The notes under the pieces were generated by a model. The model ran no database searches and was not told where the DNA came from. It saw only the letters and a program-made list of their open reading frames with translations. A DNA stretch of 46,273 bases from Candidatus Nitrosopelagicus sp. (GTDB lineage: Archaea > Thermoproteota > Nitrososphaeria > Nitrososphaerales > Nitrosopumilaceae). The translations under genes were made by a program, and so were the position numbers. Positions within the stretch are counted from its first letter, which is position 1; the number at the start of each line of letters is the position of its first letter. Below, in pieces: positions 21,057 to 35,958 of the stretch. The stretch spans positions 1-46,273 of the forward strand of contig JAOLYB010000008.1 of the NCBI GenBank assembly GCA_028343215.1, given 5' to 3'.

Positions 21057-22424
21057 TTAGCCTATGGAATTAATTCTCTGACTTTTCCAAATATACCAAC
21101 ATGCAATACTACGGTTTGGTTTCCATCTAGCTGAATATTTTTCCATAGTTTTTGGATTAGGTAGTTCTTTTAATGAAAATAAATCTCTAATCCCTTTTTG
21201 TATTCCTAGATCTCCTACTGGGAAAACATCTTTTCTTTGTAAACAAAACATTAGATAGATTTGTGCCGTCCAATTTCCAATTCCTTTGATTTTGGTTAAC
21301 TCTTCAATTACTTGTTCATCTTTTAATTTTGAAATTTTTTTAAAATCAATTTCTTTTTGAATAATCTGTTTTGATAATCCTTTAATGTAATTGATTTTTG
21401 TGCCTGAAATTCCTGTATCTTTTAATTTTTTGTCACCTGTATTCATAACCTGTTCTGGAGTAGGAAATTTTTTGTAAAGTTTTAGAAATCTCTTTGTAAT
21501 TGCTGTGGCAGATGCTTCTGATAATTGTTGATAGATTATTGCCTCCACAAGTGTTTGGTATGAATTTTTTGTAATTCTCATTGTACATGGACCAATTTTT
21601 CTTATCAATGGTTCAAGTTTTTTATCTAAATACAGAGATGAAACCTCTTTTTCATGTTTACCTGCAGTTTGTAATTTTAATCCAATGGTAATATTTTCAA
21701 AGTTTTTTGCTGTTGGATTTTTTTTATATTCTCTAGTTAGATTAATTATTTTTAATTTTGTGGGTAACTTTATCTTTTTTTGAATAATTTTTGCCAATCC
21801 CGTTCCAATCAAAATTGCTTGTGTTGCACCTGTTACATTGGATGGTTTTCTGTTGGTACTTGAACTCTCAAAATCAATAATTGTATTTTTATTTTTTCCA
21901 ACAATCACATGTTTGTCTATTGTACTTAGTTCTCCATGATCTAATTCTATGCTATCTAAAAGATAACATTCTCTCAAAACATTATTCAGTACTAAACGAA
22001 TTTCTTCTGATTTTGTTTCAGGTTTTTTTGCCCAATCAATAATTTTTTCACCTTCAATGTACTCCATTATCAAAAAATTTTTTGAATTTTTGATAAACTT
22101 TGGACCTACATCAATTTTATTTGCAATTTTGAGTAATTTGGCTTCATTTGTCATATTTTTCCTTGGAGAATCAATTCTTCGAATTTTTAATGCTACAACA
22201 TTCTTATTTTTTTTTGCAAGAACAACCATTCCCACATACCCCTTTCCAAGAATTTGACACTTCTCGATCTGTAATGGTCCGGTGAATGAAACATGAGTAA
22301 TTCCTAATTTTTTTAATTCTGTTAGTCGTTTTTTAATCTCAGTTTGTTTTCCCTCTGGAAATGTTAGAATTTTTTTGTAAGGTTCTTTATTGAAAACGCT
22401 AATTGGTTGAAAATGCTGTGTCAT
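21057..22424 (-). CDS. Fusion of an RIO/Bud32-like predicted protein kinase with an AlkA-type DNA glycosylase
   Basis: The product has 455 residues in one uninterrupted frame. Residues about 45-215 are kinase-like: glycine loop LGKGYVGMV (59-67), VALK lysine K80, LDHGELS (161-167) at the catalytic loop, and IIDFES (182-187) in place of DFG. This resembles the small archaeal predicted Ser/Thr kinases (COG2112-like). Residues about 265-450 are an HhH-GPD glycosylase: AIIYQQLSEASA, the helix-hairpin-helix LTKIKGIGNWTAQIY (377-391), and the catalytic aspartate D405 in FPVGDLG. The likely role of the second half is removal of alkylated bases. It overlaps the CCA transferase gene by 26 bases. The catalytic Asp of the kinase appears as Glu (HGE), so its activity is uncertain. 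Confidence 0.85.
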   Translation of the reverse strand: MTQHFQPISVFNKEPYKKILTFPEGKQTEIKKRLTELKKLGITHVSFTGPLQIEKCQILGKGYVGMVVLAKKNKNVVALKIRRIDSPRKNMTNEAKLLKIANKIDVGPKFIKNSKNFLIMEYIEGEKIIDWAKKPETKSEEIRLVLNNVLRECYLLDSIELDHGELSTIDKHVIVGKNKNTIIDFESSSTNRKPSNVTGATQAILIGTGLAKIIQKKIKLPTKLKIINLTREYKKNPTAKNFENITIGLKLQTAGKHEKEVSSLYLDKKLEPLIRKIGPCTMRITKNSYQTLVEAIIYQQLSEASATAITKRFLKLYKKFPTPEQVMNTGDKKLKDTGISGTKINYIKGLSKQIIQKEIDFKKISKLKDEQVIEELTKIKGIGNWTAQIYLMFCLQRKDVFPVGDLGIQKGIRDLFSLKELPNPKTMEKYSARWKPNRSIACWYIWKSQRINSIG

Positions 22425-23739
22425 CAGTAGTTATCAGTTTTGAAATGCTCTTTTTAACAGATTTGTTTTGTTTGTCTTTTCCACTTGTAATTTTAAATCC
22501 CTTTTTGAAATCATTTCTTAATCCCTTTGGAATTCCTGATTGCCCAATATGATTTTTAATTAAATCATTAAGGTATGTTTTGGCATTTTCATATCTTCGA
22601 GTTTGTAATGATTGTAATTTTCCTTCCTTATCTGTCCACATTAATTTTGATTTTTTGGAATTAATATTGATAAATTTAGTTGCAAACTCACCAGAAAATA
22701 CATCTGGTCCTGTTCTTATTTCATTTTTTGATATGATTAGTGATTCTAGTAAGAACAACAAACTAGCTCTGGTTTCATCATGTGCTATTGCATCATTTCT
22801 AAGAACATTAAATCCCTCATTGATCATTTGAGATTCAATTGAGCTAGATGCACGCTTAATCTGCCCATAAACAATGTCATCACTCCTTTTTTTGTATGTA
22901 AAATTCACAATTAGTAGATTTTTTGCAATTTCAGCGGGAATCTTAATTTTTGATTTTTCTTTAAAGTATGAAATTGAATTCTTCTTTAAGAAATTTCTAG
23001 CAATTAAAATGAAATTTGTAACATTTTGAATTGATATTGCAGCTCCGAGATTTCTGTTCCTATCTATTGGATCAATTATTACTATTGGGGACTCAAATTT
23101 TCTTGGAGATTCTCCAATCATTTCATTATTTTGCAATTTTGCAATTTTTTTTAAGACATTTTCAAAGCTACCCAGATAATAAACCAAAACTTCACAAACA
23201 TAACCACTGAATCCCTGCTTTGCAATCTCTGCTCCATACATTCCATTAATTTTTAAAAAACATTTCAAAACTCTAATGTCATCTTTCATTGAACCCGTTA
23301 ATTTTTCGCTCATAAACTCTGTATGAAATGTTGATCTATCAGCTGCACTTTTCCATTCTCCTTTTTTAATGTCATAACACGGTACAACATTAACTCCTAC
23401 TCCATCAATGTCTGCTTCAACAAATGGATGTTCTGAATATCTTACATACGGTTTGAATTTTTTTAGTGAATCAAATCCAATTTTTTTACCAATTGTTTCA
23501 AAATTTTTTTCAGTTGTTGTTTTTTTAAATTTTACAAAAATATCAATATCAATTTTTTCTGGAGTCCACGTTTCTTTTGCATATGAGCCTCCAAAATGTA
23601 CTGACACGACCGCTTTTTGTTTCTCAGTTTCTTTGTTTACAAGACTAAAGACCTGATTTGCAATTTTATCCACTTTTTTTCTTAGTATGTTGTTTGGAAT
23701 TGCTATTTGTTTTGATTTTTTTATGATATCACTTTTCAT
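22399..23739 (-). CDS. cca: Archaeal CCA-adding tRNA nucleotidyltransferase
   Basis: This 446-residue class I enzyme adds CCA to tRNA 3' ends. The nucleotidyltransferase signature is GGSYAKETW (about 50-58), followed by the catalytic carboxylates in DIDIFVKF (about 64-71) and a third one in VEADIDGV. The helical tRNA-binding C-terminal part follows; the length fits the archaeal family. Start ATG 23739 overlaps the end of the ThpR gene by four bases (ATGA type). Its 3' end overlaps the kinase-glycosylase gene by 26 bases, so three genes form a tight operon. Confidence 0.94.
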   Translation of the reverse strand: MKSDIIKKSKQIAIPNNILRKKVDKIANQVFSLVNKETEKQKAVVSVHFGGSYAKETWTPEKIDIDIFVKFKKTTTEKNFETIGKKIGFDSLKKFKPYVRYSEHPFVEADIDGVGVNVVPCYDIKKGEWKSAADRSTFHTEFMSEKLTGSMKDDIRVLKCFLKINGMYGAEIAKQGFSGYVCEVLVYYLGSFENVLKKIAKLQNNEMIGESPRKFESPIVIIDPIDRNRNLGAAISIQNVTNFILIARNFLKKNSISYFKEKSKIKIPAEIAKNLLIVNFTYKKRSDDIVYGQIKRASSSIESQMINEGFNVLRNDAIAHDETRASLLFLLESLIISKNEIRTGPDVFSGEFATKFININSKKSKLMWTDKEGKLQSLQTRRYENAKTYLNDLIKNHIGQSGIPKGLRNDFKKGFKITSGKDKQNKSVKKSISKLITTDDTAFSTN

Positions 23740-34004: not shown

Positions 34005-34439
34005 TTAATTCTTGAACTTTATCCCAAAGGTGACTCTTCTATTTAGGACGTAATTTATGGCACTGGCGACTGCAATTCCAATTCCTGCTCCGTACATGTG
34101 GTAAAATGCACTACTTTCTACTAGAGTGACTGTAATTCCTAATTGAATTCCCATTCCAATTGCGCTAACTATGAGGAATTTGATATACATGACGGAATTT
34201 CTTTTATCCTTTACGAAACTACCAAATGTCCAATATCTATTGAAAAAGAAATTTGTGGTAATTGAAACTGAGATTGCTATAATTTGAGATGCAACATACC
34301 AGAATCCTCCGATATCTGTTAGAAGGTATAAAATTCCTAAATTTACTATAACGCCGGTTGCACCAACAATGTAAAACTGAACTGCATGTTTTGCAAATAA
34401 CGATAATCCGCCTTTCTTTTTTTCGTCCTCTATCGTCAT
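34005..34439 (-). CDS. GtrA-family membrane protein
   Basis: This 144-residue protein has four predicted membrane helices and the typical pattern FYIVGATGVIVNLGILYLL, then NFFFNRYWTF and AINYVLNRRVTF, which identify the GtrA family. These proteins are proposed flippases or carriers for polyprenyl-linked sugars. A longer frame starts at TTG 34472. I prefer ATG 34439 because TTAATTATAG lies about 26 bases upstream, a fitting TATA position for a leaderless start. The 27-base gap to the downstream membrane gene suggests cotranscription. Confidence 0.82.
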   Translation of the reverse strand: MTIEDEKKKGGLSLFAKHAVQFYIVGATGVIVNLGILYLLTDIGGFWYVASQIIAISVSITTNFFFNRYWTFGSFVKDKRNSVMYIKFLIVSAIGMGIQLGITVTLVESSAFYHMYGAGIGIAVASAINYVLNRRVTFGIKFKN

Positions 34440-34536
34440 GTCCCTGCTTATTTCACCTTCTATAATTAACAATAGATTGAATCAATAATAATTTTCAAAA
34501 AACATTAGTTTTTTTTGTAATAATTTGTGAAATCTC

Positions 34537-34544
34537 TTAAATAT
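34537..34544 (+). promoter_or_regulatory. TATA box of the structured RNA
   Basis: TTAAATAT lies about 22-26 bases before the predicted RNA 5' end near 34562-34566. No protein frame starts downstream on this strand. Confidence 0.6.
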
Positions 34545-34561
34545 GATAATAACGTACCCAG

Positions 34562-34700
34562 ATTAATGCGGAAGGATGTAAATCCTATCGATTAGACTTG
34601 CGTGGTCCTGCAGAGCAGAAAATAGAGTTAATGCACATTGATGCTGACAAGTGAGGGAATCTCACATTGCTTTGCCGAAGGGCCACGCCCCCATTTAATC
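34562..34700 (+). ncRNA. Unassigned structured RNA of about 140 nt
   Basis: This region has no protein frame but has GC-rich paired segments in AT-rich DNA. The ends pair (GATTAA at 34561-34566 with TTAATC at 34695-34700). GGAT/ATCC at 34574-34585 closes a GTAA tetraloop of GNRA type. GCGTGGTCC at 34600-34608 pairs with GGGCCACGC at 34680-34688, with one G-U. GTGAG/CTCAC at 34651-34665 forms a hairpin extended by CAA/TTG. A TATA box precedes it and the convergent protein gene ends at 34704. I do not see SRP RNA, RNase P RNA or tRNA signatures. Transcription is inferred, not shown. Confidence 0.7.
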
Positions 34701-34703
34701 AGC

Positions 34704-35180
34704 CTAGATACTTCTATCGATTGCAATCAATGAAATGCTAACTGAGCCTTTTAAATTTCCAAATCGCTGAATATTCAAATCATAATTACACACATTTTGA
34801 TTCTTACATTGCATACCAGAAATTTCAAAATACTTGTTTCCTGAATAATCCCAAGTATAGTATTTTGAGATTCCAGTATCTACTAATTCTCTTTCTAAGA
34901 TGAAGGTTTCTGAGTATGGCCCAAGTTGAATTGATACCCGTTCTGGGGAATCACCCATAGGTACGAACTCAAATTTGTATGGAATATTTTGTTCCAAAGA
35001 TATAGCTGTAAATTGATGTGAATTCACATCATGAAATTCTGGTCCAGAAAAGCGAAAACTCCAAATCTCTGAATCGGCACGTTTTTGCTCATTTCCACCT
35101 GGATTCATTGCTGCACCATATGCCATTGAAACCACAATGGCAACAGCTACTATTCCTCCAGCGATGAGCGTTTTGTTCAT
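34704..35180 (-). CDS. Membrane-anchored exported protein of unknown function
   Basis: This 158-residue protein has an N-terminal hydrophobic anchor (about 5-23, LIAGGIVAVAIVVSMAYGA). A beta-rich exported domain follows with paired cysteines near the end (MQCKNQNVCNYDL), which could form a disulfide outside the cell. No family is recognised. The stop is three bases from the end of the structured RNA on the other strand. Confidence 0.7.
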   Translation of the reverse strand: MNKTLIAGGIVAVAIVVSMAYGAAMNPGGNEQKRADSEIWSFRFSGPEFHDVNSHQFTAISLEQNIPYKFEFVPMGDSPERVSIQLGPYSETFILERELVDTGISKYYTWDYSGNKYFEISGMQCKNQNVCNYDLNIQRFGNLKGSVSISLIAIDRSI

Positions 35181-35298: not shown

Positions 35299-35958
35299 AT
35301 GGCAAGTTTCCAAGACAAATGGGCAGCTCCTCAGAAGCAAAGCTTCATGGACAAACTCGGTGATACTCTCAAACCAAAAGGATCACTAAAACCAAGAGTC
35401 GAAATGGCTGTAAAACGATTACAGGCTCAAATCGGAAAACTTGATGGCATGTGCCAAAAACTCCAAGAAAGAGATCAGAAAATTTTCCAAAAAATTGTCG
35501 CTGCTCAACAAGCACACGACACCTATTCAAGTAAAGTATTATCAAATGAACTAGTAGAAGTTCGTAAAGTTAACAAAATAATGTCTAATGCCAAAATGGG
35601 ATTAGAAAGAATTGAATTAAGATTAACAACCTTCCACGACTTGGGCGATACAGTCACCACATTGATGCCAACAATCGGTCTCATGAACGGACTCAAATCA
35701 TCACTTGTCAAATTCATGCCAGGTGCAGATCAAGAGATTGGTAGAATGACTGAGATGTTAGGTGGACTAATGACTGAAACCTTCAGCAGCAGCGGATCAT
35801 CCTTCGGAGTTGAAGAATCAACAAACACCGAATCTGATAGCATCCTTGCAGAAGCAGCAGCAGTCGCAGAATCACAATCAGGAGAACAGTTCCCTTCAGT
35901 ACCATCAACTGGATTAGAGCAATTTAACGTTCCAACTTCTGAATCAAAATTTATGTAA
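35299..35958 (+). CDS. cdvB: CdvB-like ESCRT-III (Snf7 family) protein
   Basis: This 219-residue protein has a basic N-terminal helix region (about 10-40; SLKPRVEMAVKRLQAQIGKL) and a long helical hairpin with LQERDQKIFQKIVAAQQAHD, then NELVEVRKVNKIMSNA. These are the core helices of archaeal ESCRT-III. A Met-rich region (LGGLMTET) and an acidic Ser/Ala tail follow. In Thaumarchaeota and Sulfolobales, Cdv proteins constrict the cell at division. I chose ATG 35299 because of the TATA box; a frame from 35248 would add 17 residues. Whether this is the principal CdvB or a paralogue cannot be decided here. No CdvA or CdvC gene is in the window. Confidence 0.85.
   Translation: MASFQDKWAAPQKQSFMDKLGDTLKPKGSLKPRVEMAVKRLQAQIGKLDGMCQKLQERDQKIFQKIVAAQQAHDTYSSKVLSNELVEVRKVNKIMSNAKMGLERIELRLTTFHDLGDTVTTLMPTIGLMNGLKSSLVKFMPGADQEIGRMTEMLGGLMTETFSSSGSSFGVEESTNTESDSILAEAAAVAESQSGEQFPSVPSTGLEQFNVPTSESKFM

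Follow-up and report, generated by a model that had tools for sequence, protein, structure and literature searches.

A structured RNA gene of the Nitrosopumilaceae embedding a short reading frame of conserved length: a possible ribosome-engaging RNA

The Locus and Its Features

The window analysed in this work, i.e., the whole stretch of 46,273 nucleotides of a Candidatus Nitrosopelagicus contig (JAOLYB010000008.1), harbors between a divergent and a convergent gene a segment (34562–34700) that, according to the original prediction, may be an undescribed thaumarchaeal non-coding RNA. This locus raises the question of whether the segment is a gene in its own right and, if so, of which kind. According to the data reported below, it is almost certainly a real structured RNA gene, located on the + strand, which is the strand that fits all of the TATA box, the short reading frame (micro-ORF) and the G·U pairs. 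The gene is predicted to be free-standing, with a transcript of about 130–140 nt. The features of the locus are the following:

34005–34439, − strand: divergent neighbour, GtrA-like protein (PF04138, 4.2e-25)
34537–34543, + strand: TATA box, TTAAATA, at −29 to −23 from the ATG of the micro-ORF
34565–34566, + strand: predicted transcription start, placed from the TATA spacing (family: T at −2 in 0.93, A/G at −1 in 0.99)
34566–34595, + strand: nine-codon micro-ORF, ATG CGG AAG GAT GTA AAT CCT ATC GAT TAG (MRKDVNPID*)
34569–34590, + strand: hairpin P2 within the micro-ORF (34573–34577/34582–34586, GUAA loop; possible outer pairs 34569–34571/34588–34590)
34600–34608, + strand: 5′ strand of P3, pairing with 34680–34688 and starting 4 nt past the stop codon
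34610–34617, + strand: 5′ strand of P4, an 8-bp helix, pairing with 34668–34675
34633–34644, + strand: variable hairpin P5 (34633–34635/34642–34644)
34651–34665, + strand: hairpin P6, GTGAG-GGAAT-CTCAC (usual form in the family, GAGAGGNAATCTCTC)
34668–34675, + strand: 3′ strand of P4, from covariation and the structure-blind alignment
34680–34688, + strand: 3′ strand of P3, from covariation and the structure-blind alignment
34689–34703, + strand: 3′ tail, T-rich and G-poor past P3 in family members; likely terminator, weak in the window copy
34704–35180, − strand: convergent neighbour, exported protein of 158 aa, no Pfam or NCBIfam family
35299–35958, + strand: gene for a CdvB1/B2-like (ESCRT-III-type) protein (NF041005, 1.2e-42, below the equivalog cut-off)

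The fold of 34562–34703 reaches −47.8 kcal/mol, compared with −33.3 ± 3.7 kcal/mol for 200 dinucleotide shuffles (z −3.9), none of which was as stable. The pairing 34590–34596/34694–34700 of the minimum-energy structure, which has two mismatches in one relative (L007), was discarded.

Covariation Supports Helices P3, P4 and P6

The case for pairing rests on wide sampling, since the first 12 members are too alike in sequence and show no pair changed on both sides. In the model-fitted alignment of 72 members, double-sided changes were found in 27 of the 34 base pairs, for a total of 231 cells versus 57.9 in shuffles, and 92.2% of the cells were paired versus 82.9% (0/500 shuffles in either comparison); slid controls reached at most 10 pairs and 43 cells. 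A smaller set of 33 members, also in a model-fitted alignment, yielded double changes in 13 of the 34 pairs (84 cells; 25.1 in shuffles). Within P3, six out of nine pairs had changed on both sides among the 72 members; these are the compensatory changes called for by the original prediction in GCGTGGTCC/GGGCCACGC.

An all-against-all scan of column pairs was carried out on 100 members, again with a model-fitted alignment, from which the seven weakest matches (E 0.024–0.48) had been dropped and which leaves outside the loci L256 (without ORF) and L264 (with ORF). The 11 strongest covarying column pairs all fall in P3–P6, the top three representing P5, and no pair of P1 or P2 is present among the top 70. 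In a structure-blind MAFFT alignment, P3 was 97.7% paired (shuffled maximum 92.6%) with 66 double cells (maximum 30), P4 90.1% (85.2%) with 49 (21), and P6 95.1% (89.7%) with 20 (6). The same alignment lends P2 weak support (64.6% paired, shuffled maximum 61.2%), its outer pairs not exceeding the shuffles (60.9%, maximum 61.5%), and does not recover P5 (55.3%, maximum 58.8%), which lies in a region of variable length.

Concerning the four helices originally proposed, the GNRA (GUAA) hairpin at 34573–34586, the 9-bp stem 34600–34608/34680–34688 and the 5-bp hairpin at 34651–34665 are present and kept in relatives, the GNRA hairpin least well. The terminal 6-bp pairing (P1) is not supported: AATG/CATT is 70.9% paired in the structure-blind alignment (shuffled mean 69.4%, maximum 71.2%), a level expected from A/T-richness, its pairs do not appear among the top 70 covarying column pairs, and the TATA spacing puts the 5′ end of the RNA at about 34565/34566. 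Helix P4 (34610–34617/34668–34675) and hairpin P5 are additions to that list.

The P6 loop and P4 are strongly conserved in the family alignment. Three loci (L072, L073 and L076) form a subgroup in which another sequence (AAGAGAATGCTTTTGCC) takes the place of the usual P6 hairpin and the ORF, P3 and P4 are kept. We also considered P6 (GAGG) as a Shine-Dalgarno sequence; the base following GAGG is variable, which speaks against this reading.

Promoter and 3′ End

The gene has its own TATA box at the right distance, as originally proposed. Its seven bases, TTAAATA, hardly vary over 139 different upstream regions, with frequencies of T 0.90, T 0.99, A 0.99, A 0.97, A 0.99, T 0.98 and A 0.99. In Archaea, the usual spacing from the TATA box to the start of transcription would put the start at −1/+1 of the ATG; since the box occupies −29 to −23, the transcript is predicted to be leaderless or to carry a leader of a single base. 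Moreover, the different neighbourhood classes share a moderately conserved AT-rich element (about −54 to −40 of the ATG; 34512–34526 in the window, where it reads TTTTTGTAATAATTT), which may mark a shared regulator.

As for the other end, the segment stops just before the convergent gene, as already noted in the original prediction, the convergent ORF ending at 34704. In 98 loci, positions 2–13 past P3 have a T frequency of 0.43–0.78 and a G frequency of at most 0.06, and this tract is likely an archaeal terminator.

Identity of the RNA

No Rfam family matched at the gathering cut-off in the window or in the loci of six relatives, and none at E ≤ 10 in 34450–34800; ARAGORN found neither tRNA nor tmRNA in the window. 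Hence, the statement that the segment matches none of SRP RNA, RNase P RNA and tRNA still stands. The genome has its RNase P RNA (C1:64214–64495) and its SRP RNA (C6:28034–28345) on other contigs, and neither matches here. A riboswitch or a 5′ leader of the following gene was also discarded, the downstream ORF being convergent in 65 out of 72 loci. A literature survey, conducted mostly on titles and the beginnings of abstracts and not extending to the N. maritimus genome paper (10.1073/pnas.0913533107), returned no published account of this RNA, and the family appears to be new.

Distribution of the RNA Among Archaeal Genomes

A BLASTN search over 61 relatives retrieved the RNA from 12 genomes, all belonging to the same genus (12 out of 31 genomes of the genus). 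The covariance model R1, built from these 12 members, matched (E ≤ 1) 127 of the 151 genomes of the same family, including 86 of 96 good-quality ones, and 15 of 22 genera; the search in relatives suggested together with the original prediction thus returned a wide occurrence. A second model (R2), built from 72 members and including the ORF region, matched (E ≤ 0.1) 127 out of 300 genomes sampled at the order level and 17 out of 64 genera, with one to four matches per genome. Every R2 match falls within the family of the window, the genomes of other families in this sample giving none; when 24 genomes from other families were searched more deeply, a single match came up, with E 0.2. Two loci with E of about 0.05 (L258 and L259) were not counted as members.

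Among 25 hand-picked genomes, mostly missed or weakly matched by R1, 19 gave a match at E ≤ 10 and 15 at E ≤ 0.001. Five genomes of the family (G034, G064, G067, G079 and G355), two of which are small 0.8-Mb genomes of one genus, have no significant match; a deeper pass over them retrieved nothing in four and a match with E 0.43 in the fifth, a pattern that loss, divergence or missing sequence could each account for.

Furthermore, the P6–P4 pattern was found in at least 120 stretches of genome_contigs, and the 80 matches listed come from records titled Nitrosopumilus, Nitrosarchaeum, Nitrosotenuis, Thaumarchaeota and other archaea. A virus-borne element was considered and set aside, the exact P6–P4 pattern having 0 matches in viral_contigs, a search that diverged forms would escape.

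Several copies are much diverged. Seven loci of the window's genus (L248, L249, L251–L254 and L264) have ORFs like MPKADKAYD and a hairpin with GGAGGTAGTCTCC or similar; thus, this genus holds at least two forms of the RNA. Genome G098 has copies at 22388–22541 and 690161–690310; a third, divergent one (C1:488151–488291, L270) reads MEKRANFTA* and has no P6 motif of the GAGAGG type.

Gene Neighbourhood

Relatives of the exported 158-aa protein adjoin the RNA in many loci, and the CdvB1/B2-like gene beyond the convergent gene is also found in relatives; the latter may be a thaumarchaeal paralogue, because its score lies below the NCBIfam equivalog cut-off. A coarse sorting of 171 loci, in which some places are represented by two loci and the TFB class overlaps that of the exported protein, assigned 86 to the exported-protein locus, 36 to the vicinity of TFB, 25 to that of purP, 6 to an MFS transporter/membrane gene, 5 to corA/tyw1, 2 to a locus similar to that of the exported protein and 11 to other places. 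In 65 of 72 loci, the first downstream ORF (≥60 aa) lies in convergent orientation; this, together with the existence of copies without a common gene neighbourhood, argues for a free-standing RNA.

The Micro-ORF: Start, Length and Stop

The segment had been described as having no protein frame; the frame at 34566–34595, kept across the family, contradicts this. As a consequence, the idea of an undescribed thaumarchaeal non-coding RNA holds in one part: a structured RNA with its promoter is strongly supported by covariation, the TATA box, the wide occurrence in the family and the lack of an Rfam match, but the term non-coding does not suit an RNA whose 5′ fifth is a conserved reading frame.

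The counts that we rely on were obtained from the 100-member alignment, where the frame was identified by its spacing to P3. Of the 100 members, 98 have a frame of 8 or 9 codons that terminates 3–5 nt before P3, the spacing between stop and P3 being 3, 4 and 5 nt in 32, 58 and 8 members, respectively. The starts among these 98 are ATG (95), GTG (2) and TTG (1), and the stops TAA (56), TAG (31) and TGA (11). In the two remaining members (L071 and L079), the usual stop has been lost and the frames run on for one and three codons, respectively. The shorter ORFs, of 8 codons, still have their start and stop at the usual positions with respect to TATA and P3. Changes were also counted on a tree obtained from P3–P6 alone: at least 21 exchanges between the stops TAA, TAG and TGA are needed among the 98 members, to which the count is restricted since they have the ORF. 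In the 91 ORFs with nine codons, the start varies at its first base only, where three changes fall, and the three bases of the stop change 0, 6 and 13 times. Codons 2–9 of the same 91 ORFs vary freely, with 84, 116 and 97 changes at the first, second and third codon position, respectively.

Two simpler scans gave a similar picture. In the first one, 139 out of 143 distinct RNAs (171 loci) had an ATG frame with a stop, comprising 9 codons before the stop in 119, 10 in 17 (15 of which begin with ATGATG), 8 in 2 and 12 in 1, with the caveat that, by preferring the longest frame, it picked one that is not conserved in L072, L097, L132 and L140 at least. Inspection by eye of the four failures revealed a 9-codon frame just beyond the scanned window in L113, L123 and L125, and GTG/TTG replacing ATG in L056. 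A looser search fitted a frame in 169 of the 171 loci and took a non-conserved one for L071. Moreover, 15 of 16 divergent members found later, after the frame had been noticed in an alignment of the family, keep a start (13 ATG, 1 GTG and 1 TTG), 8 or 9 codons and a stop, a test that is not wholly independent, these members having been retrieved with R2, which includes the ORF region; the sixteenth (L256) has no such frame.

On these bases, the start, length and stop of the frame are kept by selection, the peptide hardly or not at all, and translation of the micro-ORF is predicted with good confidence. Codon statistics do not have a purely coding meaning here, P2 overlapping the frame and constraining some of its bases. 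A total of 70 distinct ORFs fold with a mean z of −2.7 relative to their codon-shuffled versions, which fits hairpin P2. Frame 0 was not preferred by a simplified score of the RNAcode type (−0.16, with an expectation of +0.13), a result that counts against the coding reading.

Alternative Explanations

In principle, the frame might be due to coincidence, the RNA being purely non-coding and AUG and UAA/UAG/UGA representing structural bases. P2 and the adjoining bases are indeed structured and the peptide is not conserved, but structural bases would hardly switch from stop to stop at least 21 times, nor would the start change only to GTG/TTG; the frame is kept in 15 of the 16 later members, and the 8-codon ORFs hold start and stop in place relative to TATA and P3. 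Furthermore, the composition of the columns would by itself keep 53.4 of 66 ORFs intact (maximum 60 in 2000 shuffles), breaking about 13; these 66 ORFs were picked by their first stop, so that the absence of internal stops from frame 0 (0, compared with 53 and 19 in the other frames) is true by construction. We regard this explanation as very improbable. A different possibility is that the nonapeptide is itself the product, i.e., a signal or an antibiotic precursor, as in microcin C, with P3–P6 acting as a stabilising 3′ untranslated region and terminator. The ORF is kept across members, and a gene of 7 codons can be a real gene, as reported for E. coli (PMC6495379). Some peptides are shared: MQKDAKSTA is common to L068 and L263, which differ by one synonymous and one stop-codon change; orthologous copies have peptides such as MPKDIIPID in common; and codon 9 holds its residue somewhat better, with 16 amino-acid and 24 codon changes. 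Against this, the peptide drifts freely. Pairs of ORFs differing by one base, which are mutually non-independent, show 18 nonsynonymous and 4 synonymous differences (expected 0.73 : 0.24), i.e., no purifying selection on the peptide; pairs of nearest ORFs show 35 nonsynonymous and 11 synonymous ones, 6 of the 11 lying in the stop codon. The residue of codon 5, which lies in the P2 loop, is the most changeable, with no fewer than 32 replacements on the tree, and the peptides range over MPKDIIPID, MRKDVNPID, MSLVIKSGD, MSKAIKYIA, MSVNPSSID and MAMIVISID. In addition, the genome, which is 74.7% complete, has a single match to the ThiF family (MccB-like), and this lies on another contig. A peptide product is, therefore, improbable in our opinion.

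Two further explanations were considered. If the RNA were a ribosome-controlled terminator, translation of the micro-ORF would keep P3 open and allow read-through past the T tract, antisense into the convergent gene or into the following gene. The T-rich tract after P3 and the 5′ strand of P3, which would sit under the terminating ribosome, are consistent with this, and so are the convergent orientation of the first downstream ORF (≥60 aa; 65 of 72 loci) and the proximity to corA/tyw1-type genes (5 of 171 loci). However, most of the convergent cases belong to a single orthologous locus, and the copies have diverse neighbours (exported-protein/cdvB locus, purP, TFB, corA, MFS transporter), which leaves no common downstream target; we consider this reading rather unlikely. 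The RNA might instead act in trans, by base pairing or by binding a protein, the micro-ORF only protecting the 5′ end or ensuring turnover. The occurrence of several copies per genome (one to four matches) and the high conservation of the P6 loop and P4 agree with such a role, which would nevertheless leave the fixed length of the ORF and its 3–5 nt spacing to P3 unexplained, and it seems unlikely as well.

Comparison with Known Systems

Bacterial dual-function small RNAs (e.g., SgrS) unite a small ORF with a structured or regulatory portion in the same molecule, an arrangement also seen here. The patterns of selection support both the ORF and the RNA part of the archaeal RNA, which would make it a candidate for this kind. 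The ORFs of the bacterial RNAs encode conserved proteins some tens of residues long, whereas here there are nine codons without sequence conservation. Leader-peptide attenuators (e.g., mgtL and corL) have a short ORF directly before a stem ending in a T-rich tract. They differ from the archaeal RNA, which has no common downstream gene: instead of a regulated gene in the same direction, the next ORF is usually convergent (65 of 72 loci).

A closer likeness is offered by E. coli mccA, in the microcin C operon, which has an ultra-short ORF of conserved length in a short RNA ending at a terminator hairpin (PMC6495379); here, too, the ORF is short and of conserved length, comprising 8 or 9 codons in 98 of the 100 members. 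According to the same source, the 7 codons of mccA are repeatedly translated in vitro without ribosome release, the frame being read about 71 times before release (30 and 6 times with 11 and 15 codons, respectively), and its RNA is ribosome-bound (PMC6495379); binding of the archaeal RNA to the ribosome would follow from its predicted translation. The two differ in that mccA, as described there, starts from a Shine-Dalgarno site, lies upstream of genes for the modification of the peptide and yields the peptide as its product (PMC6495379), whereas the archaeal RNA is predicted to be leaderless and its peptide is not conserved. No MccB-type (ThiF-fold) enzyme was found beside the RNA, the scanned neighbours belonging to other families or being unclassified and covering part of those of the other copies; the sole ThiF match in the genome (74.7% complete) is on C17, not on C42. 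Since no adjacent adenylating enzyme was found and the peptide drifts, the RNA is not a member of the microcin C system.

Among archaeal RNAs, the ribosome-associated sRNAs of Haloferax volcanii are reported to show ribosome occupancy, mostly without coding evidence (PMC12482152); judging from that description, they are a haloarchaeal set defined by Ribo-seq, whereas the present RNA is defined by its structure. Tan1 RNA, a structured RNA of marine Euryarchaeota with a length of 229 nt and a function given as unknown (PMC5069720), shares with it the origin from marine archaea and is set apart, as described, by length and host.

A Possible Ribosome-Engaging RNA

The explanation that we put forward, with about even confidence, is that the transcript is a leaderless micro-mRNA that docks the ribosome against a structured domain, what is selected being the ribosome event rather than the peptide; this latter point is suggested by start, length and stop being kept and the peptide not. 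Transcription would start at the AUG or one base before it, as deduced from the TATA spacing; the ribosome would initiate on the 5′-terminal AUG, read nine codons, melting hairpin P2, and reach a stop codon placed 3–5 nt short of P3, frame and spacing being conserved. Given the size of the ribosome footprint, the stop codon, the spacer and the 5′ strand of P3 would together match the stretch under a terminating ribosome; since this would cover the 5′ strand of P3, translation would have to open P3 or press against it. The RNA might thus be a regulatory one that engages the ribosome, either holding or repeatedly reloading it or reporting that translation starts and ends normally, and the P3–P6 domain would relay the ribosome event in trans. 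More tentatively, and with somewhat less than even confidence, these RNAs could represent a new class, in which a leaderless micro-ORF of fixed length and free sequence serves as a ribosome-positioning device, the ribosome rather than the peptide being effector or signal.

Nitrosopumilaceae are among the most abundant archaea in the ocean. The RNA family is present in most of the sampled genomes of this main family of ammonia-oxidizing archaea, and its frame is too short for the usual gene callers. If the proposed mechanism is true, the Nitrosopumilaceae would possess a ribosome-sensing or ribosome-holding RNA, often in several copies per genome, and this would be an unusually clear natural case in which the act and the length of translation are kept while the peptide drifts. 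It would also make a general question testable, i.e., whether the ribosome can serve as a mechanical part of a regulatory RNA.
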